64,000 nt of DNA, from the NCBI GenBank assembly GCA_944323955.1, contig CALUUK010000003.1:62001-126000 (forward strand). The letters run 5' to 3'. Origin of the DNA: Candidatus Gastranaerophilales bacterium (lineage in GTDB: Bacteria; Cyanobacteriota; Vampirovibrionia; Gastranaerophilales; Gastranaerophilaceae). Below the pieces are notes generated by a model. It was not told where the DNA came from. It worked only from the letters and a program-made list of their open reading frames with translations, and searched no databases. This document shows, piece after piece, positions 9,055-22,358 of the stretch (position 1 is the first letter of the stretch; every line of letters starts with the position of its first letter). The position numbers and the translations under genes were made by a program.

Positions 9055-9074
9055 ATTGGATGAATGCGAGACTT

Positions 9075-9156
9075 GTCGTAGTGGCGGAATCGGTATACGC
9101 GCACGTTTGAGGGGCGTGTGGAGAAATCCTTGGGGGTTCAAGTCCCCCCTACGACA
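9075..9156 (+). tRNA. tRNA-Leu (anticodon GAG), integration target of the island
   Basis: A class II tRNA with a long variable arm: acceptor GTCGTAG with CTACGAC, anticodon loop TTTGAGG with GAG, T-loop TTCAAGT, discriminator A. CCA is not encoded, unlike the tRNA-Glu and tRNA-Val genes in this window. The last six bases (ACGACA) belong to the proposed att core, so insertion rebuilt the tRNA end. The T arm and acceptor arm overlap the 3' end of the convergent recombinase gene. Confidence 0.93.
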
Positions 9157-10841
9157 TTTAACTTTTTAGAGCCTTTGTTAATAGGCTCTTTTTTAGTCTG
9201 TATTTGTTCTTTACGGGTTCCAAAGTCTATTATTTTGCTAAAATCTTCTGGGTAATTTTCACATGCTTGTTTTGCTTTTTCTGTACGACTTTCGAGGGTT
9301 CCAGTCAATGATTTTACATCTGCCGAAAAACTTTGTTTATTTTGCAATTTTCTTTGTCGCAATTGTTCAAATATCGGTTTTAATTTAACCTTTAATGTAT
9401 TTGTAGCTTCATCAAATAAAATTTCATCCGTAATCGTAGATAAAATAAGCCGTTTTTCATCCAATGTCGCTTTTAAATAAAGTTCTGGTATTCTATTGGC
9501 GAAATCAGCAAGTATATTCATCCGAGTCATTCTATCCTTTGAATTTTCACTTAAATTTTGAATTTGTTGACTTATAGAATCCTTCTCTGCTTGCCATTTA
9601 CGATGAATTTCATTAAAGGTATCATTATCAATAGTTAATTCCCCAGATAATTTTTTCTTAATACCATTGGAAATAGTATCTACAATCTTGCTATATTGTT
9701 TTTTAAGTTCTTCTAATGATTTATGTTCATAAGATTGTAAATCGCTAATCGCACTATAAATTTGATGTTTTACATTTTTTAGTTCAATATCTGAAATATT
9801 AAAACTGTCCAAAACTTCTTGCATTGCTTCATCTATTAAACATTCTCTAATATTAACTTCTTTTTTGTGCACCTTTTTATAATTCGAACAATGATAATAT
9901 ATGTATGTACCGCTATTATGACCGCCATGTTTAGTTGTACCAACCATAGTATAACCACATTTATCACATTTTATATAGTTAGAGTAAATATATGTTTCTC
10001 CTCTGGGCTTCTTATTGCTTGCACCATTAAACATTAATTGAACTCTATAGAATAATTCTTCTGATACTATTGGTTTATGCACTCCGTCATAAACTTTATC
10101 ACCATATGTAACTTTACCTGCATAAACAGCATTTTTAAGTATATCTTCTATTCTTTTTTTAGGGTATGGTTTACCTTTACCATCAACAAAACCATATTTT
10201 GCAAGCTCTTTTCCTAATTTTTCCATCGAAAAAGCACCCGTAGCATACATTTCAAAAATTCGTTTTATATAATATTCTTTATTTGGGTCTGGTACAATAA
10301 TGCCATGTTTATGCTCATCTCTAACATTTAAGTACCCTACAGGTGCTTTGCCTAATTTGTAACCCTTTTCTGCCCTATTTTTTATTACTGTTCTTGTTCT
10401 ATCTTTTGTGTTTTCAAGCTCATCTTCTGCTTGCCCGATATATACACCTAATAAAACTTTTTTAACTTTTCTTATGTCTTCAAAATTTTCCATAATACTT
10501 GCGATAGTACAATCATTGTTTTTTATAGGTTTCAAGATTTCACCAAAAAAATCTTCTTGACATCTTGATAGTCTATCCAACTTCCAGACAATTACACATT
10601 TAACTTTATTATGTTTTATGTATCGTAATAAATTTTTTAAGCCTTGCCTATTAGTATTAGCCCCCGTTTTTCCAGCATCTTCAAAATAAACAAAATTATA
10701 ATTTTTTGCTTTTGCCCATTTTTCGCACTCGTCTTTTTGCATATCCAAACTTAAGCCACTGCTTGCTTGTTCTGCGGAACTAACTCTTGTGTAAATTGCA
10801 ACTATTTCCTTTTTTATTTTGGCACTATGCAACTTGTTCAT
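9138..10841 (-). CDS. Large serine recombinase (integrase of the island)
   Basis: A 567-residue serine recombinase. The resolvase-type catalytic domain (1-150) has the nucleophile motif YTRVSS at 17-22 and the [11 protein letters not shown] helix. The Recombinase domain follows (about 165-275: [15 protein letters not shown] and [20 protein letters not shown]). A zinc ribbon begins at [11 protein letters not shown], and a coiled coil lies between about 350 and 460. This layout is that of phage-type integrases that act directionally between attP and attB. GGGAG precedes the ATG. The last codons lie inside the tRNA-Leu gene on the opposite strand, so insertion or excision would change the protein's C-terminus. 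Confidence 0.93.
9151..9160 (+). repeat. Left att core, ACGACATTTA, in tRNA-Leu 3' end
   Basis: Ten bases covering the last six tRNA bases and four more. It is repeated exactly, in the same orientation, at the proposed right end of the island. Confidence 0.65.
9168..9194 (+). terminator. Intrinsic terminator after tRNA-Leu, inside the recombinase gene
   Basis: AGAGCCT and AGGCTCT form a seven-pair stem over an eight-base loop, followed by T. It would stop tRNA-Leu transcripts 12 bases past the tRNA. It lies within the antisense of the recombinase 3' coding end, on the island side of the proposed crossover, so the island brings its own terminator for the target tRNA. Confidence 0.8.
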
Positions 10842-10998
10842 TTTTTACTCCCTTCCCATTATTGCATGGGAATTCATTTTTATCTACTCTTAATCCAATA
10901 ATTGTAATATTTTGCATCAGTTGAGCAATTAAACAACTGTCTTCTAAATCACTACTATTTAATTCGCTTGGGATAAACTCTATATTCAGTTTTGCCAT
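10825..10998 (-). CDS. Small protein upstream of the integrase
   Basis: A 57-residue reading frame (start MAKLNIEFIP, end GVKNEQVA) whose end overlaps the recombinase start by 17 bases, suggesting coupled expression. It has no membrane segment and no motif I recognise. Large serine integrases often have a small partner gene that sets the direction of recombination; position alone makes that a possibility. The frame is open further upstream to a GTG at 11118 (97 residues). I prefer the ATG, though its ribosome-binding site is weak. Confidence 0.45.
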   Translation of the reverse strand: MAKLNIEFIPSELNSSDLEDSCLIAQLMQNITIIGLRVDKNEFPCNNGKGVKNEQVA

Positions 10999-11153
10999 TT
11001 TTGACCAGCCTTTGAGGTGATTAACCTCGTTAAAATCTTCTGCTCTCTTTCTTTTACTTTTTATTCTTTCCTCTTGATTTTGGCTTTTTGAGGACCAATC
11101 AAGAGGAATAATAAACACTTATATTCTTTGTGTATTATATTTTAAGTTATATT

Positions 11154-11190
11154 TCTTAAGTCTATATGTAATACATGTATAAATCTTAAG
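11154..11190. repeat. Two TCTTAAG repeats upstream of the integrase operon
   Basis: TCTTAAGTCTATATG and TCTTAAGATATATG occur 30 bases apart (about three helical turns) in the 142-base gap between the HNH gene and the small integrase-operon gene. Each contains the palindrome CTTAAG. They could be regulator sites for the integrase operon. Confidence 0.35.
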
Positions 11191-11260
11191 ATATATGACT
11201 CTTTATAATACTAAAAATATTTATCGTAATTGATATATAAACCAAAATTCCAAAAACTCA

Positions 11261-12100
11261 TCATGCAGCTAAAATCCTCTTATATTCATAAACTTCACTC
11301 CATCTCTTTTTATATTTTGCATTTAAGTCTGGAAATGGTAGTATTTTGTGTGTTTCAAGACTTTCTATAAATCCATTCCTATAAGAAGAATATTTTTTGA
11401 GAATATTCGATATACTTCTTATGGATATTTTTTTATTTATAATTTTGTGGATTTCTTTAATTTTCTTACCGCTACATTTTGCTTTCAAAACGGATAAAAC
11501 AATTTCTTCATTATTCACCAATGTTTGCCGTTTTAATCCGTTAAAGTAACGGATGTAGGCATTTCTTATATTTAAGCCTTGTTTAATAAGTTTTTTTTTA
11601 TTGTTTATTGTGTGAATAGCAATATGTTCTTCCTTTTCTATTGGTGTAAGATTTATTACACTATTATATTGTTCGTCAGTATCAATATGATGTACTTCAT
11701 ATGATAAGATACTAAAATATAAACACATAACCAATCTATGCCAACTGCATTGCCCTTTTTCGTTTATCCCTACTTTGACTGATAAGGCAAGACCATTATT
11801 CACAAATATTTTATATAGTTTTGCGGGTAAAATTCTTTGTAAAAATTCCTTATTGACTACAATATAATTAGAATAATTATTACTTGTGGCTATTTCATAT
11901 TTTTTTATTTTGTCTTTTTCAATAGTAAAAATATATCTATCGACCTTTGCATATCCATGATTTACTTCACAAAGAGCAATCAAAATACCATTGATTAAAT
12001 TTGCTCCCAAAACTTTAAGATTTTTGTATCTGCATAGCATTTCTTTATCTAATTTTTGACAAAGAAACTCTATGTATTGAGATTCTAAACTCATTCTCAA
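11261..12100 (-). CDS. Predicted HNH endonuclease
   Basis: A 279-residue protein with an HNH motif like those of phage homing nucleases: W120-H121, then YEVHHIDTDEQYNSVINLTP with H137-H138 and N150, and H159/H163 in KEEHIAIH. The C-terminal 100 residues contain a helix-turn-helix-like stretch (KIKEIHKIINKKISIRSISN). The order of DNA cleavage then DNA binding resembles free-standing homing endonucleases. It is not inside an intron or intein here. It may be a nicking nuclease for element mobility or a selfish gene inside the island. Confidence 0.65.
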   Translation of the reverse strand: MRMSLESQYIEFLCQKLDKEMLCRYKNLKVLGANLINGILIALCEVNHGYAKVDRYIFTIEKDKIKKYEIATSNNYSNYIVVNKEFLQRILPAKLYKIFVNNGLALSVKVGINEKGQCSWHRLVMCLYFSILSYEVHHIDTDEQYNSVINLTPIEKEEHIAIHTINNKKKLIKQGLNIRNAYIRYFNGLKRQTLVNNEEIVLSVLKAKCSGKKIKEIHKIINKKISIRSISNILKKYSSYRNGFIESLETHKILPFPDLNAKYKKRWSEVYEYKRILAA

Positions 12101-12246
12101 TACCTCATTTTCTTGTATTACAAATAGACCATATTATATGGTTAATTTGTAAGGTTATTAAATTAAATTTACACGTAAAAACCTATGCTAACAGATAGCA
12201 TTTACCTGTATTGCAGTAGTAAAATTAGTGCTTGCTCAAATAAAGA

Positions 12247-12333
12247 AAATGTGGTACTATAATTCTGGAGAATTAATAGGTAGACAAATTCATTATTTAA
12301 GATTTTGTCAGCTTTTTATTTTAGTACCATTTT
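12247..12333. other. Structured intergenic element (three-way-junction fold)
   Basis: An outer stem pairs GGTACTA (12253-12259) with TAGTACC (12322-12328) and extends outward through AAAATG and ATTTT with one bulge. Inside are two further dyads: TAATTCT/AGAATTA (12260-12275) and GACAAA/TTTGTC (12283-12309). Together they fold into a closed stem with two branches on either strand. It lies in the 568-base gene-free stretch between the HNH and XRE genes, in what would be the HNH gene leader. It may be an RNA element or a DNA site for replication or mobility. Confidence 0.45.
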
Positions 12334-12379
12334 AAACCCTCTCGACTTCCCTAATTTTATTTAATATTTTTTAACAACT

Positions 12380-12399
12380 ACTTGACAAATTTATCAAGT
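12380..12399. promoter_or_regulatory. 20-bp operator-like palindrome
   Basis: ACTTGACAAA|TTTATCAAGT is an inverted repeat with one mismatch per half. It contains TTGACA on the plus strand and TTGATA on the minus strand, so a bound repressor could block a -35 element. I saw no other gene or clear feature in the rest of the stretch 12101-12668 apart from the structured element. Confidence 0.45.
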
Positions 12400-12668
12400 T
12401 ATGTTAATCGTATCACAAATTTTTATAAATGTCAAGAGAAAACAGAGTCTATGACTGCATTTCAGGTAATCAAAAAACCTTTACAAATATAATTTAGTGT
12501 GGTATAATAAAAAATTGTATCTTTTATTTTTAAAAATTTAGCACCCTAAATTTTTATAATTTCGTAAAATATTTCTACCAAAAAACGGCTAAAAACCTAT
12601 AGCATAATTCGATGATTTTTGAGTATTTAAATGGTACAGAAAATTAAAATTTTTAAAATAGTATATTT

Positions 12669-13001
12669 TTATCTCAAAGTCTTTACTATGGAGTCCATTG
12701 TGTCTAATAGTTCAGTATATGCCTTTATTTCCTTTTCTGATGATGACAAAATCCGCTTAACCAATTCATTTTTTGTTTCATCTATTTTTGAGTCCGTATT
12801 TACTCCAAAATCGTCTAATGTAAAATTCAAAACACCGGCCATTTTTAAAAAGGCTTCCACATTAAGAACACTTAAACCTCTTTCTACTTTGCTTAAGTAG
12901 TTTGTAGATAAGTCAATTTTCTCCGCAAGTTTTTCTTGCGTTAAATTTTTATCTTTTCTTAACTTTTGTATAATTTGACCAATATCGGTTTTGTTAATCA
13001 T
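12669..13001 (-). CDS. XRE-family transcriptional regulator
   Basis: A 110-residue protein with an N-terminal Cro/cI helix-turn-helix (IGQIIQKLRKDKNLTQEKLA then EKIDLSTNYLSKVERG) in residues 7-50, and a short helical tail. GAGGT precedes the ATG. It is divergent from the small envelope-protein genes; the shared intergenic region holds a perfect inverted repeat (CAATATGATTA/TAATCATATTG) with one half near each gene, fitting a repressor that controls itself and the neighbour. It may control the island lifestyle or only this cargo. Confidence 0.85.
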   Translation of the reverse strand: MINKTDIGQIIQKLRKDKNLTQEKLAEKIDLSTNYLSKVERGLSVLNVEAFLKMAGVLNFTLDDFGVNTDSKIDETKNELVKRILSSSEKEIKAYTELLDTMDSIVKTLR

Positions 13002-13028
13002 ATATAATACCTCATTTTATGATAGATA

Positions 13029-13119
13029 CAATATGATTAGTTTTTAATGGCAAATTGTATTGATTAAAAGATTATTGATACTATTTGACTAATTGGATTT
13101 TTAATTTATAATCATATTG
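13029..13119. promoter_or_regulatory. Paired operator half-sites of the XRE regulator
   Basis: CAATATGATTA (13029-13039) and its exact reverse complement TAATCATATTG (13109-13119) lie 80 bases apart centre to centre. The right copy overlaps the -10 box of the rightward promoter and the left lies 28 bases from the regulator start. Confidence 0.6.
13085..13112 (+). promoter_or_regulatory. Promoter of the envelope-protein genes
   Basis: TTGACT, 16 bases, perfect TATAAT. The predicted start near 13119 gives a leader of about 45 bases before the ATG at 13165, which has a purine-rich AAAGGGG site. Confidence 0.7.
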
Positions 13120-13164
13120 GATTGATATATGATAATCAAGCCTAAATAATCACAAAGGGGTAGT

Positions 13165-13560
13165 ATGACAAAAATAAAAAAAAATAATTGGATAGGTTTT
13201 TTATTAATACTTATAATATGGGCAATAGTACACTCCATAGCGGGATTCACTGAAAAGTCAAAAAATACAGACTCTCCGAAATCACAAGTAGAAACTACAC
13301 AAAAAACAATTAAAAAATCTTCAGAAGATTTAACATGGTTTGCTAAATTTCAATGTGAAAAGGAAATAAAAGCAAGAATACCATCAGCAAAAGTACACTT
13401 TAGACAGGATAATTATATAAATGGTAATAGTTATACCGTATATGGTACTATTGATGGACAAAATGCTTTTAGAGCAATGGTTAGACAAAATTTTGGCTGT
13501 GAAATTATTATCGACCAAGAAAATGATAAATTTTGGATAAAAGACCTTTTAATAGAATAA
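13165..13560 (+). CDS. Membrane-anchored protein, function unknown
   Basis: A 131-residue protein with one N-terminal membrane segment (IGFLLILIIWAIVHSIAGF, about 10-28), a Lys/Ser/Thr linker and a compact domain at about 57-131 holding two cysteines (FQCEKEIK and NFGCEIII). The segment orientation suggests the domain faces outside the cytoplasm, where the cysteines could pair. It is first of three rightward genes that all encode short exported proteins. I recognise no family. Confidence 0.65.
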   Translation: MTKIKKNNWIGFLLILIIWAIVHSIAGFTEKSKNTDSPKSQVETTQKTIKKSSEDLTWFAKFQCEKEIKARIPSAKVHFRQDNYINGNSYTVYGTIDGQNAFRAMVRQNFGCEIIIDQENDKFWIKDLLIE

Positions 13561-13601
13561 TGACAAGATATTTTAAGCAAGTCATAAAGGATTAATAATA
13601 C

Positions 13602-14117
13602 ATGAATGATAATATTACAATTTCAAAAAAAGCACTTATAATAATTATCTCAAGTATATTGGTAATTATACTTGCATTTATTGGTTTAAATATACTTATA
13701 AATTCAGAATTTTATTACAATAAAACTTCAAAAATTGATACAAAATTTTTCAGAGATGAGGTAAGAGTATGCTGGTTTCATAGTCATTACTACCCTAAAG
13801 ACAGTATATTAAAGGCAAAACTTTCAATAGAAAATTTAGATGATGATTTAATAAAATATGCAAAATCATTTTATGGCAATGCTCCTATAATAGATATTGT
13901 TTTTATAGACAAAAATGGCTATAAAGTAACAAATAAAGTAATAACTGTTGGTGAACTTATAAAACAAGATTATAAATATGAAGTTGAATTTTCCTTAAAG
14001 ATAAGTAATAATGAGATAAAAAATATAAAAGACATAGAATTTAGTCATACTCTTTTGTTTACATCTACATTAGAAGATTTTAAAAAAGATTTTAATACAT
14101 ATTTTAACTATAGGTAA
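13602..14117 (+). CDS. Membrane-anchored protein, function unknown
   Basis: A 171-residue protein with one hydrophobic N-terminal segment (ALIIIISSILVIILAFIGLN at about 11-30) and a mixed alpha/beta outer region with motifs such as VRVCWFHSHYYPKDSI and APIIDIVFIDKNGYKV. It looks like a single-pass envelope protein. It follows the previous gene by 41 bases and is five bases from the next, so the three are probably one transcript. No family recognised. Confidence 0.65.
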   Translation: MNDNITISKKALIIIISSILVIILAFIGLNILINSEFYYNKTSKIDTKFFRDEVRVCWFHSHYYPKDSILKAKLSIENLDDDLIKYAKSFYGNAPIIDIVFIDKNGYKVTNKVITVGELIKQDYKYEVEFSLKISNNEIKNIKDIEFSHTLLFTSTLEDFKKDFNTYFNYR

Positions 14118-14122
14118 TACAA

Positions 14123-14368
14123 ATGAAAAAACTTTTTACTATAACTTTAATAGGCTTGTTCGTTGCTTCTTGTAGTGCTTTTGCTTATGATAAGCACTAT
14201 ATCAAAAATAGCAAAGGGCAGACTACGGGTTATACAAAGACTTATAGCAACGGTAAAACTGTACAATACAACAAAAAGGGGCAAGTAGAATACACCTACA
14301 AAAAAGATTCTACAGGCAAAATAACAAAGTATTCCAAAACAGGAAAAAAGTTAGAAACATATAAATAA
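14123..14368 (+). CDS. Short secreted or lipoprotein with Tyr/Gly/Lys repeats
   Basis: An 81-residue protein with a signal peptide (LFTITLIGLFVASCSAFA). VASC could serve as a lipobox, or AFA as a signal peptidase I site before YDKHY. The mature part is made of short repeats of the type NSKGQTTGYTKTYSNGKT and TGKITKYSKTGKKLETY, similar in style to YD or YwqK-like surface repeats. It is last in the XRE-controlled operon. A surface or extracellular role is likely; nothing points to a specific one. Confidence 0.65.
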   Translation: MKKLFTITLIGLFVASCSAFAYDKHYIKNSKGQTTGYTKTYSNGKTVQYNKKGQVEYTYKKDSTGKITKYSKTGKKLETYK

Positions 14369-14375
14369 TTTAATC

Positions 14376-14489
14376 AAATTTGAGTAATCTCCGGCCAATT
14401 TTAAGGCTTGTTAAATCCCCAATAGGTATAAATACACCATGAACATCATAAAAACCGATTTTTTAAAGAAATAGAATTTACTCAAATTT
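14376..14489. repeat. 12-bp inverted repeats around a gene-free stretch
   Basis: AAATTTGAGTAA (14376-14387) and TTACTCAAATTT (14478-14489) are perfect inverted repeats bounding about 114 bases with no open frame. The arrangement could be a transcript-end structure for the operon or a very small insertion remnant. I saw nothing else between 14369 and 14625. Confidence 0.35.
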
Positions 14490-14625
14490 AAACCTTGCTA
14501 CATAAGGCTTTCAGAGTCATTTTTTTAATTTTTTGTTTTTGTTGAATGTTTGTGAAGTTTTAATTTGATAAAATTTATCTATAAAATATCATCCCCATGC
14601 CAATAGCCTGTTTAATGGTTTAATC

Positions 14626-14660
14626 AAAAACGGGGGGCGGTATGTTTTACCGTTACCCCT
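14626..14660 (-). terminator. Intrinsic terminator of the resolvase gene
   Basis: Read on the minus strand, GGGGTAACGGTA, a short loop and TACCGCCCCCC are followed by GTTTTT. The left arm includes the stop codon of the resolvase gene. Confidence 0.75.
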
Positions 14661-15252
14661 TATAATTCTTTGCTAACTTATAGAATGATGTAGGCTTAAG
14701 ATTCATTTGTTTCATTGCTTCTCTTGCTGTAATACTGCCACTTTTCCATATAGGATATATTTCATGCCAGTTATCAGGATATTGTATTGGCGGTTTTCCT
14801 AATCTTTTTCCTTTTTCCTTTGCTAACTTTATTCCCTCTGCTTGTCTTTGCTTGATAAATGCTCTTTCTTGCTCTGCTACATAACTTAATAACTGTAAAA
14901 CTATATCACTTATTACTTCACCAATAAGCCCTTCTGTCCTTGTTGTATCAAGTACAGGCATGTCAATGACCTTAATATTTGCTTTTATATCCCTTGTAAT
15001 TTCTCTCCATTCATCGCAAATCTGCTTATAATTTCTTCCTAAACGGTCTATGGATTTGATTACAAGTATATCCCCCTCTCTTAACTGTAACTTTAATGCT
15101 TGATATTGCGGTCTTTCAAAATCCTTACCACTACATTTATCAATAAAAATATCTCTTTCATTGATACCTAATTCAAGCATAGCCTCTAATTGCCTATCCT
15201 CTTTTTGTTCTGTAGTAGATACCCTGCAATAGCCAAAAGTTTTAACAGTCAT
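14653..15252 (-). CDS. Small serine recombinase (resolvase/invertase family)
   Basis: A 199-residue enzyme with the catalytic motif YCRVST (nucleophile S12), IKSIDRLGRN near 65-75 and a C-terminal DNA-binding helix-turn-helix (IWKSGSITAREAMKQM then NLKPTSFYKL). It is the size of Tn3 resolvases and DNA invertases, so it is distinct from the large integrase of the island. A pair of matched inverted-repeat sites lies just upstream, where Tn3-type res sites are found. It may resolve element multimers or invert a segment; no obvious invertible promoter was seen. Confidence 0.9.
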   Translation of the reverse strand: MTVKTFGYCRVSTTEQKEDRQLEAMLELGINERDIFIDKCSGKDFERPQYQALKLQLREGDILVIKSIDRLGRNYKQICDEWREITRDIKANIKVIDMPVLDTTRTEGLIGEVISDIVLQLLSYVAEQERAFIKQRQAEGIKLAKEKGKRLGKPPIQYPDNWHEIYPIWKSGSITAREAMKQMNLKPTSFYKLAKNYKG

Positions 15253-15326
15253 AATATTCTCCTAAATTTTGTACTCTATACTAATATTATGACTCTACTA
15301 TTCGCATAAGTCAATATTGTATGTGA

Positions 15327-15409
15327 ATATTCGTAAAATATATTTACATACATTTACGAATATAAAATAAGACAAATTTTTTGACTTCGTAAAGGTACAC
15401 TTTTACGAA
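15327..15409. promoter_or_regulatory. res-like repeat region upstream of the resolvase
   Basis: Two dyads share the same half-site. Site I is ATATTCGTAAA (15327-15337) with TTTACGAATAT (15353-15363); site II is TTCGTAAA (15386-15393) with TTTACGAA (15402-15409). Their centres are 52-53 bases apart, about five helical turns. Position and layout fit a recombination or autoregulation site for the adjacent recombinase. Single half-sites also occur near 12564 and 18480. Confidence 0.55.
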
Positions 15410-15426
15410 TACATTACAATAATTAC

Positions 15427-15597
15427 TTATTTATTTCTTAAATCCTCTGCGGTATACCATCTACCACATTGTATACAATAATAATCACCTGTTCCCATGC
15501 CTAAAAGATGCTCTTGTTTTTTATGTGTACAATCGCATGGTTTATCGCCCCATTCTTTTCTTAATCTTTCTGCATATTCTGCATCTGATTCTCTCAT
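15427..15597 (-). CDS. 56-residue zinc-ribbon protein downstream of the ABC-3C operon
   Basis: A short gene encoding a start MRESDAEYAERLRKEWGD, then C21-D-C23 with H25 and a second pair C41-I-Q-C44, a plausible zinc-binding knuckle pair. It has the best ribosome-binding site of the operon (AAGGAG, five bases from the ATG), which overlaps the stop codon of the ABC ATPase gene, with 12 bases between the genes. That makes co-translation with the ATPase very likely. It could be an accessory or regulatory part of the system, or an unrelated cargo gene. Confidence 0.68.
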   Translation of the reverse strand: MRESDAEYAERLRKEWGDKPCDCTHKKQEHLLGMGTGDYYCIQCGRWYTAEDLRNK

Positions 15598-15609
15598 AAA
15601 ATCTCCTTT

Positions 15610-17403
15610 TTATAATCTAAAACCAAAAAGCCCACCGTCTTCTGTATCTTCTAATTTTAAACGAACACATTTATTGAATCTATTTTTAAATTCCTTACTG
15701 AATAATTTTTCTGGTACTCTATCAGAGTTCATAAAACAAATATATTCAGTATTTAATTCTTTTGCAGAATTATCGGCATATTCTAATGCTTTTGCAATTT
15801 GCCTTTCATCAACGGAGTCAAATACATCACTATCATGTATTAAAAATCCAGGTAGATTGTTATTTTGATTTCGTATAGTCATAATAGTCATATCATAATC
15901 AAATACTTTCATTGCAGTTCTACCCGTACTTTTATCTTTACCAATAAAAGCATTATATTTATATCCATTATCATCAAAATCAATTGAAAGTCCGATTTTA
16001 TCGATTTTATCTTTTTCTGCATATAAAAAATCTGCGATTTCAGCAAATGTTTTAATTGCGATTGTCCGTTGTTCTTCTCGTTCATCAAGGTCTTGCTTTG
16101 CTTTGCTTAATAATTCTAATGTTTGTTTTTTATTCTCTGTTAAATCAGATTCCATTTTCTTAATATTTTCGATATGTTTTTCAATTTCATTTAATTGTGC
16201 TCTCAATTCAGCATTACGATTTTGTAGTTTATTAAATTCATCAATAGCATTATGAGTTTTTAATATTTTCATTTTTTCAGCACGTTTATCAAGGAAAGTC
16301 TTTAAATAATGGTCATTCTTTTCTATTTCATCATTTAATCGCTTTATTTCATCATTTAAATATTCTTTTCTGTTTTGAATAACAGTAGAATGAAAAGCAA
16401 CAACTTCTTCCAATGATTTAGTTACATTATCTGGGAATGTTAGACCAGCCTCATCATATATCAATTTAATAGTGCTTATATCTGAATCTTTTTCTTCTAA
16501 ATTATCTTTTTCATATTTTTCAAGTAAACTTTTTTGAACTGTTACTGTTTCTGATAATTTGTGTATTTGTTTGGTTAATTGATTCGCTTCTTGTTGAATA
16601 TCCTCATAGTGTGGATGAACTTTAAATTCTGCCAATTCATTATCATATCTATTAACTTTGTTTTGCAAGACTACTTTTTCAGATTCTAATTCCCCAAGAG
16701 TACCAGTATAATTTTTAAAATATCCATTTTTTGTGGCATTTTTTAATTTGATTATCATTTCTTTTTCATCTTTTAGATTTTGCATTGTTATAGCATATTC
16801 CCAATTAAGATTTAATAAATATGCATTGTATATTTGTGATTGCCATGCTTTTTGATTTTTAAAATATTTAAATGGGTCTAAAAAGGCACCTTCATTATAT
16901 CTTATAAAATAAGGTATAAGACTTCTGTATTTTGGATAATATTTTTCTGTAGAATTATTGTCTATCTTAAAAATGTAAATCCCTAAAAAATCTTTCCAAT
17001 CATCCTCTTTCATATAATATTTATAAATTGTTGCTACGACAGAATCAGATTTAATCTCAATGGGTTTTATATCCCACTTTGAGAATTCTCCATCTATAAA
17101 ATATACTTTTGTACTATTTGCAACATTCCTGTATATTGTGTGTATCTTGCCATATATTTCAAGTTCAATAGCATATGTCCAATTTCCTATTAACGAGGAA
17201 TCTAATGTTTTAATAGAACCACCCAAACAAAAATCTATAATTTCAATTAAAGAAGTTTTACCTGCTCCATTTCTTGAATTTTTATTATTTTTTTGTTTTA
17301 AATCGGATGCCACATCAGCAAGTATAACATTTAACCCTTTATGAAATGTTATATTTTTTACAATTTCATTGTTTTCATTTATTAATTTTACTGCTTTAAT
17401 CAT
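15610..17403 (-). CDS. ABC-three-component ATPase, DUF2326 (YydD-like) type
   Basis: A 597-residue SMC/Rad50-like ABC ATPase with no membrane part. The N-terminal ATPase half has Walker A RNGAGKTSL with K49. The middle third is coiled coil (about 215-460, rich in Glu, Lys and Leu). The C-terminal half holds the Walker B-like GFLIHDSDVFDSVDE near 515. This split layout is that of DUF2326 proteins, which act as the ATPase of ABC-3C conflict systems. GAGGG precedes the ATG and the gene overlaps the middle component by eight bases. In this family the ATPase is thought to sense invading nucleic acid or a nucleoprotein and to license the effector; this is inference from the family. Confidence 0.85.
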   Translation of the reverse strand: MIKAVKLINENNEIVKNITFHKGLNVILADVASDLKQKNNKNSRNGAGKTSLIEIIDFCLGGSIKTLDSSLIGNWTYAIELEIYGKIHTIYRNVANSTKVYFIDGEFSKWDIKPIEIKSDSVVATIYKYYMKEDDWKDFLGIYIFKIDNNSTEKYYPKYRSLIPYFIRYNEGAFLDPFKYFKNQKAWQSQIYNAYLLNLNWEYAITMQNLKDEKEMIIKLKNATKNGYFKNYTGTLGELESEKVVLQNKVNRYDNELAEFKVHPHYEDIQQEANQLTKQIHKLSETVTVQKSLLEKYEKDNLEEKDSDISTIKLIYDEAGLTFPDNVTKSLEEVVAFHSTVIQNRKEYLNDEIKRLNDEIEKNDHYLKTFLDKRAEKMKILKTHNAIDEFNKLQNRNAELRAQLNEIEKHIENIKKMESDLTENKKQTLELLSKAKQDLDEREEQRTIAIKTFAEIADFLYAEKDKIDKIGLSIDFDDNGYKYNAFIGKDKSTGRTAMKVFDYDMTIMTIRNQNNNLPGFLIHDSDVFDSVDERQIAKALEYADNSAKELNTEYICFMNSDRVPEKLFSKEFKNRFNKCVRLKLEDTEDGGLFGFRL

Positions 17404-17626
17404 TTTTTACCCTCATGATTAAACCTTTATCAAATTTTATCAAATTAAACATATACAAGAAATCCAATGTTAAAACAAATTTTTCAAAACTTGTAATTTC
17501 TTTATATTTTTTCAGTTTATTCCATAATGCTGATACAGACTGTGGATAGGTCAATCTTGGTAAAATCAATGCACCTACACCAATTATAGAATATGAAAGT
17601 TTTATTGTTTTGTTAGGCTTTATCAT
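17396..17626 (-). CDS. ABC-3C middle component
   Basis: A 76-residue protein (start MIKPNKTIKLSYSIIGVGA; features LPRLTYPQSVSALWNKLK and SFEKFVLTLDFLYMFNLI). Size, position between effector and ATPase, and the pattern of a conserved N-terminal strand, a WNKLK helix and an FVLTLDFLYMFNLI helix fit the small middle components of ABC-3C systems. It overlaps the upstream gene by four bases (ATGA) and the ATPase by eight, so all three are translated together. It probably bridges the ATPase and effector. The exact subfamily cannot be fixed by eye. Confidence 0.75.
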   Translation of the reverse strand: MIKPNKTIKLSYSIIGVGALILPRLTYPQSVSALWNKLKKYKEITSFEKFVLTLDFLYMFNLIKFDKGLIMRVKND

Positions 17627-18396
17627 TTCTCAAATATATCACACTCCAAAAAGAAATAAGATACAACCGATAAAGCGGCCGCACTTACAATATTTGTATC
17701 ATAGTTAGATTTTGCAAAATCCCATAAACTTGTAAAAATATCATCACCAGATAAATTTTGTTTTTTTAATTCTAAATACTTATTAATAAAAGCATTTCTT
17801 AAATTCTGCTCAAAAGAAATATTTATATTTGTAATTTGATTTATATAATTTCTAATCAAATTGGAATTTGCTAACCCCATTGTTATACATTGTGCAGTAC
17901 CTAATGACAATGAATTTTTATCTATTTTTTCTTGTGGTGTTATTATTCTATAATCTTCACTTGGATTATTTTGCTCATTTGGATTTGTAATACATTTGAT
18001 TATAATATCCAACTCTGCACATGTAACTTTATCTACCGAAGCCTCTAAATCATTTATGGCATTTTTTATATGCTCTGCTTTTAATTCTTTTAATTTTTCT
18101 ACCGTATAAGTTTTTTCATCATTATCAATAATTGTATGACATGTTGGGCAAACAAAAATTAAATTATCATAACTTTGTCTTTCCTCATCGGTTAAATCTT
18201 TCCCATCTTCATACCTTGCAGCTCCAGGCTTTTCACCACAAATATGAGCCATTTCTCCAATGTTAAAAACAGAATTATCATCATTTCGTATATACAATTT
18301 CTTTTTACAAATAGCACATTGACCACCTGAAAGTTGTATTAAAACTTTCATATCTCTATTTTTGATATCTAATTTTGGTGATTCACTCTTTGTCAT
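17623..18396 (-). CDS. HNH nuclease effector with ABC-3C C-terminal domain
   Basis: A 257-residue protein. The N-terminal HNH domain has two zinc CXXC knuckles (C27/C30 and C83/C86), the metal-site histidine H51 in GEMAHICGEKPGAAR, N78 and H87 in FVCPTCHTIID. The C-terminal part (about 150-257, TAQCITMGLANSNLIRNYIN) has no nuclease motif and is probably the docking domain of ABC-3C effectors. It is first in the operon. The likely role is DNA cutting once the ATPase is triggered, giving interference or abortive infection; this is inferred, not shown. Confidence 0.78.
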   Translation of the reverse strand: MTKSESPKLDIKNRDMKVLIQLSGGQCAICKKKLYIRNDDNSVFNIGEMAHICGEKPGAARYEDGKDLTDEERQSYDNLIFVCPTCHTIIDNDEKTYTVEKLKELKAEHIKNAINDLEASVDKVTCAELDIIIKCITNPNEQNNPSEDYRIITPQEKIDKNSLSLGTAQCITMGLANSNLIRNYINQITNINISFEQNLRNAFINKYLELKKQNLSGDDIFTSLWDFAKSNYDTNIVSAAALSVVSYFFLECDIFEK

Positions 18397-18543
18397 ACTA
18401 AAAACCCATAATAATTATACTACAAAAACTATTATTCTCATATTAAGAAATTTTTGATAATATTTGTACTATATACAATTCGTAAATATTGCAATTATAA
18501 ACAATTTTAGAAACAAATATAGTTTATAACAGGAGATAAAAAT

Positions 18544-19539
18544 ATGAATAATGAAAGAACGCCTATTGAAAAAATTAAAGCATACCATTCTACAAAAGGT
18601 TACTTATCGAAAAGTAATCAACTTCTCTTACAGACTATGATGGGAATTACAGAAGAAGATTTAAAAAGACTTTCAGGATTAGATATAGAAACCGAATTCA
18701 TATTAACCTTGTACATGTTGGATATTTGTAATGAAATTATCGGATTTGAAGAAGGTATTGCCCGTTTAACAAAGGTAGCATGTCCTGATTTATACATAGA
18801 ATTAAAAGATGGGAAAAAATTATTTATTGAAATAAAAGAAAACAATATAAATCTCACAAAGACTGGATTAGAAAAAATGAATAATTTTGCAAAAAAATTT
18901 CAAGCTGAATTTTATGTAGCAGTAAAACAAAATGGATTATGGGCATTATATGATTATGAATATCTGCATAATAGAAATCCAAAAAAAATTAACTGGAACG
19001 ATGATTATAAAAATTCATTATTCAATGAGCTATTTGAAAACATAACATATTTTTTGCCAAATAATCTACTTTTTGAGTGTATCTATGATAAGGATTTAAA
19101 TTTAGAAACCGCTTCTCACTATGCAAATTGTGGTTGTTTAGAAAAATTAATAATAAAATACAATGATAATGTAATTTTAGAGACACAAAATCGAGATGAA
19201 GCCGAATTTATATGTTTTAATTTAGAAGCAATTATAACAGAATCCTCTAAACTCTTGCATCAGGAAAAAAATATTTCTGAAAGCAATAAAACAATTGTAC
19301 AAGATAAAATTTATCTAAAAAACTATGATGGAATATATATAAATCTATATAATTTTTTATTAGAACCTGTTGTCCATACATTAAAATCTAACAAAGAAAA
19401 GTATGATTTTACTTCATTCTTGCAAAACCAGTATGCAAGAAAAGATAATATAGCGAAAATGAGAAAAAATATTATTTCATGTTTAAGTCTTCTACAAAAA
19501 GTAGGTTATCCAATAATAAAAGTAAAATTCAATAATTAA
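18544..19539 (+). CDS. Predicted PD-(D/E)XK nuclease next to the ABC-3C operon
   Basis: A 331-residue protein. Residues 71-98 match the restriction-nuclease core: P81-D82 on a strand (ACPDLYIELKDG), a turn, then FIEIKE with E96 and K98, giving PD-X13-EXK. A helix before it (ETEFILTLYML) supplies a candidate acidic residue E51. The rest is helical with no second motif I can name. It is divergent from the ABC-3C operon across 147 bases, has an AGGAGA site, and is the last gene before the right att site. It may be part of the same defence cassette or a separate defence gene. Confidence 0.65.
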   Translation: MNNERTPIEKIKAYHSTKGYLSKSNQLLLQTMMGITEEDLKRLSGLDIETEFILTLYMLDICNEIIGFEEGIARLTKVACPDLYIELKDGKKLFIEIKENNINLTKTGLEKMNNFAKKFQAEFYVAVKQNGLWALYDYEYLHNRNPKKINWNDDYKNSLFNELFENITYFLPNNLLFECIYDKDLNLETASHYANCGCLEKLIIKYNDNVILETQNRDEAEFICFNLEAIITESSKLLHQEKNISESNKTIVQDKIYLKNYDGIYINLYNFLLEPVVHTLKSNKEKYDFTSFLQNQYARKDNIAKMRKNIISCLSLLQKVGYPIIKVKFNN

Positions 19540-19681
19540 ATATAAAATTAAATATATTTTTAATATCCTAATACCATACGCATGTTGTAATATTCATTTG
19601 TTGATTCTTTCATTATTGATACAATGTTTTTATAAAGGTTTACTACATTTGTTTTCTGTGATACTATTTTTTTGTTGTTGG

Positions 19682-19733
19682 GTTCCATTATTGGCACAAT
19701 AACGACATTTATTTTGAGCCATAATTATGGAAC
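19682..19733. repeat. 52-bp imperfect palindrome, candidate attR
   Basis: GTTCCAT at one end and ATGGAAC at the other close an imperfect inverted repeat whose arms match through TTATT..GGC.CAA.TAA with small gaps. Its centre falls within ACGACATTTA. Dyads of about 40-50 bases around a short core are the usual shape of serine-integrase att sites. The remaining bases between 19540 and 19812 contain no open frame. Confidence 0.55.
19702..19711 (+). repeat. Right att core, ACGACATTTA
   Basis: Exact direct copy of the ten bases that end tRNA-Leu, lying at the centre of the palindrome at the right boundary. Downstream of both copies T-rich bases lead to GAGCC, a further partial likeness. Confidence 0.62.
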
Positions 19734-19812
19734 TCTATCTTATCCTAATAAATTGTCTGAGAATAAAATTGTAAATTATAAACTTTTTTAGATTTAATTA
19801 AACATTTGAAAA

Positions 19813-20331
19813 TTATATTAAAAATTCTTGCGGATATTCAACTTTAGCATTAAGCAGAGAATTTTTTCCCTGGAGATTTACAGCCATAAAATATTCCTCA
19901 GGAACATCAAAAGGACATATAATATTAAAATCCCTTGAAGGCCTATAACCGAAACGCGAATAATATCTTGGATAACCTAAAAGAATTACATACTCAAAGC
20001 CCATATTTTTTGCTATTGTATGTCCGGTATGAATTAGCAAACTGCCTATACCTTGTTTTTGTAATGCAGTATCTACAGATATAGGTGCAAGAGCAAGTTG
20101 TATGGAATCTCCAACCATAACCTTCGTAAAAAGTATGTGTCCAACAATTTTTTTATCCAATTCTGCAACAAGTGAAAGTTCCGGTATGAATGCATTACTT
20201 TTTCTTAAACGATTAACAAGATTGTGTTCATCCCCATCAGAATGTTCTGCATTTTTGAAAACTTCTTTTATCAAATTATAGACGTCAACTATGTCTTTTT
20301 TTGTTTCTTGCCTAATTATAATATTTTCCAT
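19813..20331 (-). CDS. GNAT-family N-acetyltransferase (YhbS-like)
   Basis: A 172-residue acetyltransferase. The acetyl-CoA binding loop is QKQGIGSLL in the segment LAPISVDTALQKQGIG. The following ILLGYPRYYSRFGYRPS is the YhbS/COG3153 signature. Length and start (MENIIIRQETKKD, with an AAGGATA site) fit the family. The acceptor substrate is unknown. It is the first intact chromosomal gene to the right of the island. Confidence 0.88.
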   Translation of the reverse strand: MENIIIRQETKKDIVDVYNLIKEVFKNAEHSDGDEHNLVNRLRKSNAFIPELSLVAELDKKIVGHILFTKVMVGDSIQLALAPISVDTALQKQGIGSLLIHTGHTIAKNMGFEYVILLGYPRYYSRFGYRPSRDFNIICPFDVPEEYFMAVNLQGKNSLLNAKVEYPQEFLI

Positions 20332-20392
20332 AAATATCCTTCTTTATGTTATCATATATCATAAAAGCATCTTTCAGAACATAAATCTGATT

Positions 20393-20527
20393 ATGCAATA
20401 TCTAACCGAAGAACATGCACCGGATGGTATCGGGGTCACAGAACCCCACTATAATATATCATTTGATAATACAGGTGAAAGAAACAGAAGAAAAATAAAA
20501 AATCGATTATACGAAATAATTCTATAA
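20393..20527 (+). CDS. Possible 44-residue protein
   Basis: A short frame (start MQYLTEEHAPDGIG, end KNRLYEIIL) between the GNAT and SMR genes. No ribosome-binding site or family is recognisable. Composition looks protein-like rather than random, so it may be a small gene or a gene remnant. The rest of 20332-20675 holds only the hairpin listed next. Confidence 0.25.
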   Translation: MQYLTEEHAPDGIGVTEPHYNISFDNTGERNRRKIKNRLYEIIL

Positions 20528-20592
20528 TATAGATATTTAAAATAAATTTTCAAAATCAAATTTCAGACACGGATATAAATTCTGCGCACAGG

Positions 20593-20628
20593 AACAATAA
20601 TTATAGAACCTATAATTAATTGTTTTTT
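20593..20628 (+). terminator. Hairpin with T-run upstream of the SMR gene
   Basis: AACAATAATTATAG and CTATAATTAATTGTT pair with one bulge and are followed by TTTT. It could terminate any transcript from the short frame before it. The stem is almost all A-T. Confidence 0.4.
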
Positions 20629-20675
20629 CACTTTTTTCAAGATAATATTCTTACTTACAGAAAAGGAAAAATTTT

Positions 20676-20990
20676 ATGAGTTGGTTATATTTAATTTTAG
20701 CAATTATTTTTGAAACAATCGCAACAACACTTCTAAAAATGTCAAACGGATTTTCTGCATTATTGCCATCTATTGGCACAATTTTTGGCTATATCTGTTG
20801 TTTTGCATTTTTATCTTATGCGTTAAAAACAATCGATATGGGCATCGCATATGCAATTTGGTGTGCTTTTGGCATTATATTAGTTAGTATTATTGGAATG
20901 ATATTCTTCCAGGAATCCGTAAGTTTCATAAAAATTGCTTCAATCTTATTAATAGTTCTTGGAACTGTTGGTTTAAAACTTGCAAATTAA
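20676..20990 (+). CDS. SMR-family multidrug efflux protein (EmrE-like)
   Basis: A 104-residue four-helix membrane protein. The essential membrane glutamate is E13 (LAIIFETIATTLLKMSNGFS). GIAYAIWCAFGIILVSIIGM in helix 3 and the C-terminal ILLIVLGTVGLKL are family signatures. It would exchange cationic compounds for protons as a dimer. AAAAGGAAAA precedes the ATG. It stands alone, with no second SMR gene beside it, so a homodimeric pump is likely; guanidinium exporters share this fold and cannot be excluded. Confidence 0.92.
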   Translation: MSWLYLILAIIFETIATTLLKMSNGFSALLPSIGTIFGYICCFAFLSYALKTIDMGIAYAIWCAFGIILVSIIGMIFFQESVSFIKIASILLIVLGTVGLKLAN

Positions 20991-21009
20991 GACTTTTTTA
21001 CGAAATTTA

Positions 21010-21281
21010 TCACCATTTTCCAAAGTGTATTTTGTCTTCTGCCTTGTATTGAACCTGTTCAACTTCAACCTTTTCATCAGCCGGATACCCCAAACCGATA
21101 TAACAAGACAATAAATAATTTTCAGGCGCACCTATAAATATTACAAATTCCCAATTTCTAAGGTGGTCATGCATAGGCGCAAACCTGCGTTAATTATCTT
21201 TTTAAAACTTCATCCGGTACTGCATTGTTTTTTAAAATCTCTTGTTACTCGTCTGTTATAAAGAGCCTCATATAGTTCCAT
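21010..21281 (-). pseudogene. Decayed nitroreductase-family gene
   Basis: On the minus strand the ATG has a good AGGAGA site and begins MELYEALYNRRVTRDF, the start of a nitroreductase. The frame then shifts: NAVPDEVLKR appears in a second frame, and AGLAPMHDHLRNWEFVIF with PENYLL in a third. An internal deletion then joins to IGLGYPADEKVEVEQVQYK and ends FGKW. At least two frameshifts and a loss of roughly 90 codons make it non-functional. The intact enzyme would be a flavin-dependent nitro or quinone reductase. Confidence 0.8.
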
Positions 21282-21346
21282 ATCAATTCTCCTTTTACAT
21301 AATAAGTCTTTGACAAATATACAAAATTAAAGCAAAAAATCTGATA

Positions 21347-21694
21347 TTATCTTTCAACGGGAACATAATCAATTTTTGATTCTGTTTCGGTTTTTTCAAG
21401 TTTAAATATAACGGGTCTTAATCCGTCATTACAACTGCAAATTGCAATACCCGGCTTTCGTATCCAGTCTCCGAAATAAAAAAGTTCATCACTTTTCATA
21501 TGCGCCAACGCAAAAACATATTGGTATATAGCTTTCCATGCTTCATCACAAAACCCGTCAGGTTTCGCATAATCTGCCCAAAATACTTGTCCTTCCCTCA
21601 TCATTGGACAAGCGGTTAAACCTTCCCTGCCGTATTCTTTTGCAAGTTCTTCGTCTAACATTGTTTTCAATACAGTAATTTTAACCTTATTCAT
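21347..21694 (-). CDS. TIGR04076-family protein
   Basis: A 115-residue protein with the features of this small family: N-terminal KVKITVLKT, a Cys in LTACPMMREGQVFWADYAKP, FCDEAWKAIYQYVFALAH, and SCNDGLRPVIFKLEK near the end. Several cysteines are conserved in the family, which suggests a metal or redox role, but the function is not known to me. It lies between the dead nitroreductase and the tag gene and is divergent from tag. Confidence 0.75.
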   Translation of the reverse strand: MNKVKITVLKTMLDEELAKEYGREGLTACPMMREGQVFWADYAKPDGFCDEAWKAIYQYVFALAHMKSDELFYFGDWIRKPGIAICSCNDGLRPVIFKLEKTETESKIDYVPVER

Positions 21695-21791
21695 TATCAG
21701 CCTCTTTTCATTGACAAACCTTCGTATACTTTAGTATATTTGTTTACAAATTAATATATCAGTTCCGACAGAAAAAAGTAAGTAAGTGTTT

Positions 21792-22358
21792 ATGACTACT
21801 AAAAAAATAACTAATCGCTGTTTTTGGGTTAATATGAAAAACCCGGTTTATATTAAATACCATGACACGGAATGGGGTGTTGCGGAACATTCTGATAAAA
21901 AGTTATTTGAAATGCTTATTTTAGAATGTTTTCAAGCAGGTTTAAGCTGGGAATGTATCTTAAACAAAAGAGAAAATTTCAGAAAAGCCTTTGACAATTT
22001 TGACATAGAAAAAATAAACAAATATGACGAAACAAAACTCAATCAGTTATTGGAAAATCCCGATATAATAAGAAACAAACTTAAAATAAAAGCTGCAATA
22101 ACAAACAGTATTATATTTAAACAAATTCAAAAAGAATTCGGATCTTTTGATAAATACATTTGGGGCTTTACGAAAGGAAAAGTAATATTTGAAAGCTGTG
22201 ATATAAGAACAACCTCACCTTTATCCGACGAAATTTCAAAAGACCTCAAAAAACGCGGAATGAAATTTATGGGTTCAACAACTGTTTATGCCTATTTACA
22301 GTCTATCGGAATCATAAACGCACACACAAAAACCTGCGATTGTTATAAAGATAATTAA
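21792..22358 (+). CDS. tag: DNA-3-methyladenine glycosylase I
   Basis: A 188-residue Tag-type glycosylase that removes 3-methyladenine from DNA. The zinc site residues are visible: RCFW and YHDTEWG at the start and HTKTCDC at the end, matching Cys4, His17, His175 and Cys179 of E. coli Tag. ILECFQAGLSWECILNKREN is the helix-hairpin-helix entry of the family. I use the ATG that follows GTG-TTT; a GTG two codons earlier is also open. The 3' end overlaps the convergent transporter gene by four bases. Confidence 0.94.
   Translation: MTTKKITNRCFWVNMKNPVYIKYHDTEWGVAEHSDKKLFEMLILECFQAGLSWECILNKRENFRKAFDNFDIEKINKYDETKLNQLLENPDIIRNKLKIKAAITNSIIFKQIQKEFGSFDKYIWGFTKGKVIFESCDIRTTSPLSDEISKDLKKRGMKFMGSTTVYAYLQSIGIINAHTKTCDCYKDN

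Follow-up and report, generated by a model that had tools for sequence, protein, structure and literature searches.

Does the reading frame at positions 18544–19539 of this window encode a nuclease and, if so, does that nuclease belong with the ABC-3C operon from which it diverges? The window, i.e. the whole stretch of 64,000 nt analysed here, comes from a Candidatus Gastranaerophilales bacterium, and the original prediction proposed that a PD-(D/E)XK nuclease and the HNH gene of the ABC-3C operon form a two-nuclease cassette. The frame itself held up well: it is intact on the forward strand, spans 331 codons from an ATG, is preceded a few bases upstream by an AGGAG that is plausibly its ribosome-binding site, and encodes P81-D82 and E96-I97-K98 as predicted. 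The HNH gene (17623–18396, reverse strand) indeed diverges from it across an intergenic region of 147 bp (18397–18543). This gap had been read as a shared promoter region; an enrichment of promoter-like sites was not found (8 sites between 18300 and 19800, compared to a mean of 13.8 in shuffles). The nuclease gene is present as a single copy in its own genome and has a GC content of 24.9%, versus 35–38% in two flanking host genes.

Patterns of the form PD-x(8-30)-[DE]-x-K arose in 7.5% of shuffles of the nuclease protein, and in 0.75% when the hydrophobic strand context was included, so that the motif by itself is weak evidence. What lifts it beyond chance is its conservation in 11 of 11 family members, together with the matches to Hjc profiles. 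The Pfam Hjc model (PF01870) scored 25.8 bits against the whole protein and 27.5 bits against residues 1–149, both above the curated cut-off of 21.1, and the description of the protein as otherwise unrecognised is therefore not quite accurate. The cut-off of the NCBIfam Hjc equivalog (NF040854) was not reached (20.1 bits versus 70). A single-sequence phmmer search against the PDB placed Hjc at an insignificant E-value of 0.34, but in the correct register, and a seven-member profile that included the window protein (A5) found A. fulgidus Hjc with E = 1.3e-7, with D82, E96 and K98 aligned in register. Furthermore, when a profile was built from the other ten members alone, leaving the window protein out, it recovered the window frame among 17,537 ORFs (E = 2.4e-10, residues ∼43–161; the frame in this search begins 7 residues ahead of the ATG). 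Across the 11 members, G45, P81, D82, E96, K98, A126, W133 and L135 are invariant, while residue 49 is E in 10 members and D in one. Sequence profiles and the invariant D82, E96 and K98 strongly support assigning residues ∼43–161 (window ∼18670–19026) to a PD-(D/E)XK domain with E49, D82, E96 and K98 as predicted catalytic residues; judged at this level, the original nuclease call is right in kind.

Detectable similarity to the relatives is confined to this domain. The C-terminal half, whose fold is unassigned, had no Pfam match and showed no detectable relation to the C-terminal halves of the family, with 1303 of 5000 shuffles scoring as high. Compared to archaeal Hjc (PF01870; PDB 2wcz and 2wcw), the PD...ExK core can be aligned with the three central residues in place, but the window protein is longer (331 aa) owing to an extended C-terminal region, falls far under the equivalog cut-off and belongs to a bacterial family that is found in defence neighbourhoods.

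Fold prediction, proposed as a check alongside the original call, was run with AF2 on the whole protein and on the isolated domain, both from a single sequence, and gave poor models (pLDDT of 44.1 and 52.7, respectively) that did not place D82, E96 and K98 relative to each other. The low-confidence model of the whole protein matched Hjc (Z = 5.3), a tRNA-splicing endonuclease, RecU and HincII (Z of 3.4–5.3 overall), and its top structural match was a predicted RNA methyltransferase (2as0, Z = 5.8), which by the rule of the tool ties with Hjc. The model of the isolated domain yielded no PD-(D/E)XK structures and at best unrelated chains (Z = 3.9); since this model is so poor, the missing Hjc match says nothing either way. 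That no assembled active site is seen in these poor models would be in line with a PD-(D/E)XK fold that has no nuclease activity and serves, say, a DNA-binding or structural role. We regard this as very improbable, as D82, E96 and K98 are all unchanged across the 11 distant members, which is what one would expect of catalytic residues.

In total, 10 distant intact relatives were found, mostly on alphaproteobacterial plasmids. Direct searches with the window protein returned no related loci in genome contigs or viral contigs, and tblastn at 1e-5 returned none in plasmids and none in phages. A looser tblastn search of plasmids gave four records, among which two distinct proteins covered 44–65% of the query at E-values of 0.04–0.05. 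The two founding relatives (L187, 329 aa; L188, 337 aa) were joined by further members in later searches, while no relative was detected in phages by tblastn at E up to 10, nor in viral contigs searched with family queries. Within its own phylum the window sequence is an orphan, with only itself retrieved from 386 genomes after removal of one chance peptidase-like match; the candidates G194 and G080 were dropped as chance matches to a peptidase-like ORF. A search with the Hjc family across 192 genomes of the order gave matches in 42, mostly short frames of 109–137 aa. These were not used as relatives, since the one longer frame examined (L185) has a matching part that resembles a YraN/UPF0102 protein. 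In the order of genome G517, 5 of 327 genomes had family matches, including one broken remnant (L207) and one second subgroup (L208), and in the class of G527, a set without a positive control, none of 255 genomes did. Two members are broken (L190:5001-5948 and L207:7745-8056; several frames, internal stop), which indicates that the gene can be lost. In E. coli, Providencia and Proteus, conjugative plasmids carry a distant member annotated as a hypothetical protein (L193:4833-5906).

The alphaproteobacterial relatives, which are annotated as 'hypothetical protein' or 'restriction endonuclease' and lie mostly on plasmids (L187, L188, L189, L191, L192 and L204-L206), resemble the window protein in length (322–359 aa), in their significant similarity over residues ∼43–161 and in their invariant residues, but are only 13–21% identical to it, and the C-terminal halves are not detectably related. 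Where their neighbours could be recognised, these were AbiE, Fic, PD-T7-1 or CTD7-type ABC-3C. The annotation as restriction endonuclease, along with a weak match of the window protein to the PADLOC model REase_II (E = 0.0063), would fit a remnant or solitary restriction enzyme, type II or IV, with the host DNA protected by other means. This match is insignificant, however, and none of the seven relatives scanned showed it with an E-value of up to 0.01; in addition, a scan of the main ORFs from 9138 to 19539 revealed no methyltransferase. Taken together, we consider a restriction enzyme quite unlikely.

On the other side of the intergenic region, three genes on the reverse strand (15610–18396) constitute a complete three-component ABC-3C (Lamassu) system, which PADLOC lists under the candidate type PDC-M68; the literature searched made no mention of this name. 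They encode an HNH effector with a C-terminal CTD10 (17623–18396; PDC-M68A; CTD10 with 35.0 bits, cut-off 28.1), the 76-aa middle component MC6, which overlaps both flanking genes (17396–17626; Pfam PF20293, E = 2.6e-17; 63 bits, cut-off 27.2), and an SMC-like, LmuB-like ATPase with DUF2326 (15610–17403; PDC-M68B; DUF2326 with 107.4 bits, cut-off 28.7). According to a review (PMC10586767), ABC-3C systems consist of an effector with a variable C-terminal domain, a middle component and an SMC-like protein, and both HNH and PD-(D/E)XK are among the effector domains. Because HNH-CTD10, MC6 and the ATPase are complete, the operon already has its own effector nuclease. The nuclease at 18544–19539, in contrast, is a neighbour without a CTD that is absent from related loci; with E-values of up to 1 allowed, it showed no match to an ABC-3C CTD or middle-component Pfam family. 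Like the nuclease gene, those of the ABC-3C system are AT-rich (24.9–27.3% GC for all of them, compared to 35.4 and 38.3% in the two flanking genes). A 56-aa ORF with paired cysteines and no Pfam match lies 12 bp after the ATPase gene (15427–15597, reverse strand).

In a two-nuclease cassette, the Hjc-type nuclease would specifically serve the HNH ABC-3C system and be regulated together with it from the region that separates them, and the divergent placement of the two genes 147 bp apart speaks in favour of this. As a conserved unit, however, the cassette was not supported by comparison with related ABC-3C loci. We surveyed 93 of these (80 from genomes, 7 viral and 6 from plasmids) as well as L005 by hmmsearch with the family profile (E < 10), and none of the 94 contained a relative of the nuclease. 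In 84 of the 93 loci, but not in the remaining 9, the position of the HNH-type gene could be determined, and 71 of the 84 hold at least 2 kb of sequence upstream of it. Likewise, none of the 25 searched genomes that carry such an ABC-3C operon had a member of the nuclease family. In the closest relative of the operon (L012, with an ATPase 83% identical), a divergent ORF takes the place of the nuclease; a reading of the start of its sequence, before the contig ends, called it C5-methyltransferase-like. The 79 upstream neighbours of the HNH-type gene that were scanned were heterogeneous, and among the best 25 of 115 families no nuclease family was one of the recurring neighbours. The commonest was Methylase_S, the type I specificity domain, encoded before the HNH-type ABC-3C gene in 8 of the 79 loci, which suggests that ABC-3C systems are frequently nested in type I restriction loci. 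With 0 of 94 loci and a different neighbour in L012, the pairing of nuclease and ABC-3C is not conserved for this ABC-3C type.

An association of homologues with ABC-3C operons in general fared better than one with the subtype of the window: 2 of the 12 other family loci contain an ABC-3C system, although of the type CTD7/MC3/DUF3732, unlike that of the window. In L191, such a system follows the relative 189 bp downstream, encoded on its strand, and in L204 the distance is 2.1 kb, with AbiE in between. With another ABC-3C subtype close to both of these relatives, the refuting result named in the original prediction, a lack of ABC-3C association at other loci, was not obtained cleanly. The DUF3732 ATPase was present on only 41 of 72,556 plasmids, so that finding it beside the relative in L191 is not something trivially expected; one such adjacency in about six distinct plasmids exceeds uniform scatter, but the clustering of defence genes could explain this excess. 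On balance, a dedicated accessory of the ABC-3C system appears improbable to us, and the supposed cassette is probably a mere neighbourhood.

What does recur among the relatives is the company of defence genes. We examined 13 family loci (the window, L187-L193 and L204-L208), scanning a subset of the neighbours, and recognised defence genes close by in seven of them, whereas L187, L192, L193, L206, L207 and L208 (6 of 13) had no recognised defence gene among the neighbours scanned. ABC-3C systems are found near the nuclease family in the window, L191 and L204, AbiEi/AbiEii diverge from the relatives in L188, L204 and L205, and Fic does so in L189 and L190. In L189, a PD-T7-1 match (L189:4992-7384) overlaps the relative by 4 bp, and homologues of this match are near the relatives in L190 (L190:5954-7378) and L205 (L205:11100-12431), making the PD-T7-1 match and the nuclease relative a candidate two-gene unit. 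Moreover, a predicted pPIWI-associated nuclease and caspase-like proteins were detected near the relatives in L188 and L204. These counts include non-independent loci, namely L188 and L204, which have a common neighbourhood, and L189 and L190. Since the relatives recur by defence genes, including another ABC-3C subtype, the association is with defence islands and not with this particular operon; AbiE, Fic and PD-T7-1 beside the relatives are what the sharing of defence islands would give.

We therefore favour, as the reading that is probably correct though by no means assured, a stand-alone Hjc-type defence nuclease that is cargo of a mobile element at tRNA-Leu, and for which the ABC-3C system is a neighbour by way of the defence island and not a partner of which it is a subunit. 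The protein would be a metal-dependent DNA endonuclease, with the Hjc-type PD-(D/E)XK domain (∼43–161) joined to the C-terminal region of unassigned fold. The C-terminal region, a homodimer, or both may recognise a feature of invading DNA, upon which E49, D82, E96 and K98 would bind metal and cut it; the C-terminal region could thus supply recognition or regulation. The nuclease would act alone as a single-gene defence, sharing the divergent intergenic region with the complete HNH-type ABC-3C system as an island neighbour. Metal use, DNA as the substrate, the role in defence and recognition through the C-terminal region are all points that we infer.

Comparable nucleases exist: PD-T4-1, PD-T7-1, PD-T7-5 and others reportedly had demonstrated anti-phage activity in the 2022 study by Vassallo. 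Single-gene PD-(D/E)XK defence systems are listed in a review (PMC10952713), and like the gene in the window they are lone nuclease-fold genes in defence neighbourhoods. The window protein gave no match to any PADLOC model of such systems, even with E-values of up to 1 allowed. More generally, the copies of PADLOC and NCBIfam that we searched held no model over cut-off for the nuclease family, to which the window adds a diverged Hjc-type member from Gastranaerophilales, and which recurs beside known defence systems. Restriction of phages by the nuclease alone would make it one more single-gene defence nuclease; should it depend on the ABC-3C operon, the four genes would form a new arrangement. 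A literature search found no account of a Hjc-like nuclease family, from which it does not follow that none exists. More speculatively, and in our view unlikely, these proteins would form an undescribed single-gene Hjc-type family with exchangeable C-terminal recognition regions that is repeatedly divergent from AbiE, Fic or ABC-3C abortive-infection operons, with DNA cutting backed by a suicide system under the same intergenic control.

The nuclease gene is likely mobile cargo. A large serine recombinase (9138–10841, reverse strand) overlaps the 3′ end of tRNA-Leu(gag) (9074–9157), and among other species in the genus, homologous recombinases are located beside this tRNA as well (L129/L135 and L134/L136), with further homologues near the same host gene in L144 and L147. 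In the related genome G503, the gene at window position 22355 follows the tRNA within ∼55 bases, and 9157–22354 is absent. A serine recombinase in the same region, relatives mostly on plasmids and a Holliday junction resolvase (Hjc) as the nearest named family could all be accounted for if the protein resolved junctions for the mobile element or otherwise helped it to recombine, acting on branched DNA like archaeal Hjc. However, recombinases of the large serine type work without a junction resolvase, and the nuclease is missing from the stretches compared in which this recombinase lies at this tRNA, several of which are short. The low equivalog score (20.1 versus a cut-off of 70) and the length of the protein (331 aa versus a 134-position model) also argue against this function, which we find doubtful.

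The boundaries of the mobile region are less clear than first thought. The nuclease gene had been placed just inside the right att site, a claim that was not confirmed: the only candidate for the right att core is a 10-bp copy (19702–19711, forward strand) of the tRNA-Leu 3′ end (9151–9160), a repeat of a length expected by chance and hence not significant. Matches of 10 bp arose in 59 of 400 simulated 18397–22354 regions and in 131 of 400 simulated 10842–22354 regions. Nor does the empty site in G503 mark 19702 as the end, because the whole of 9157–22354 is absent there. The interval that separates the candidate att site from the host gene at 22355 (19711–22354) contains genes that, on reading, look GNAT-, SMR transporter- and TagI-like, as well as one for a 115-aa protein. 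All of them are missing at the G503 site, and the island may therefore be larger than thought, or composite. Elsewhere in the mobile region, a 279-aa protein (11261–12100, reverse strand) is weakly similar to phage HNH endonucleases (phrog_7545, E = 6.6e-6) and is possibly, by this similarity, a homing-type endonuclease. A second serine recombinase, of the resolvase type, is encoded at 14653–15252 on the reverse strand and has a relative near the tRNA-Leu recombinase in L134/L136.
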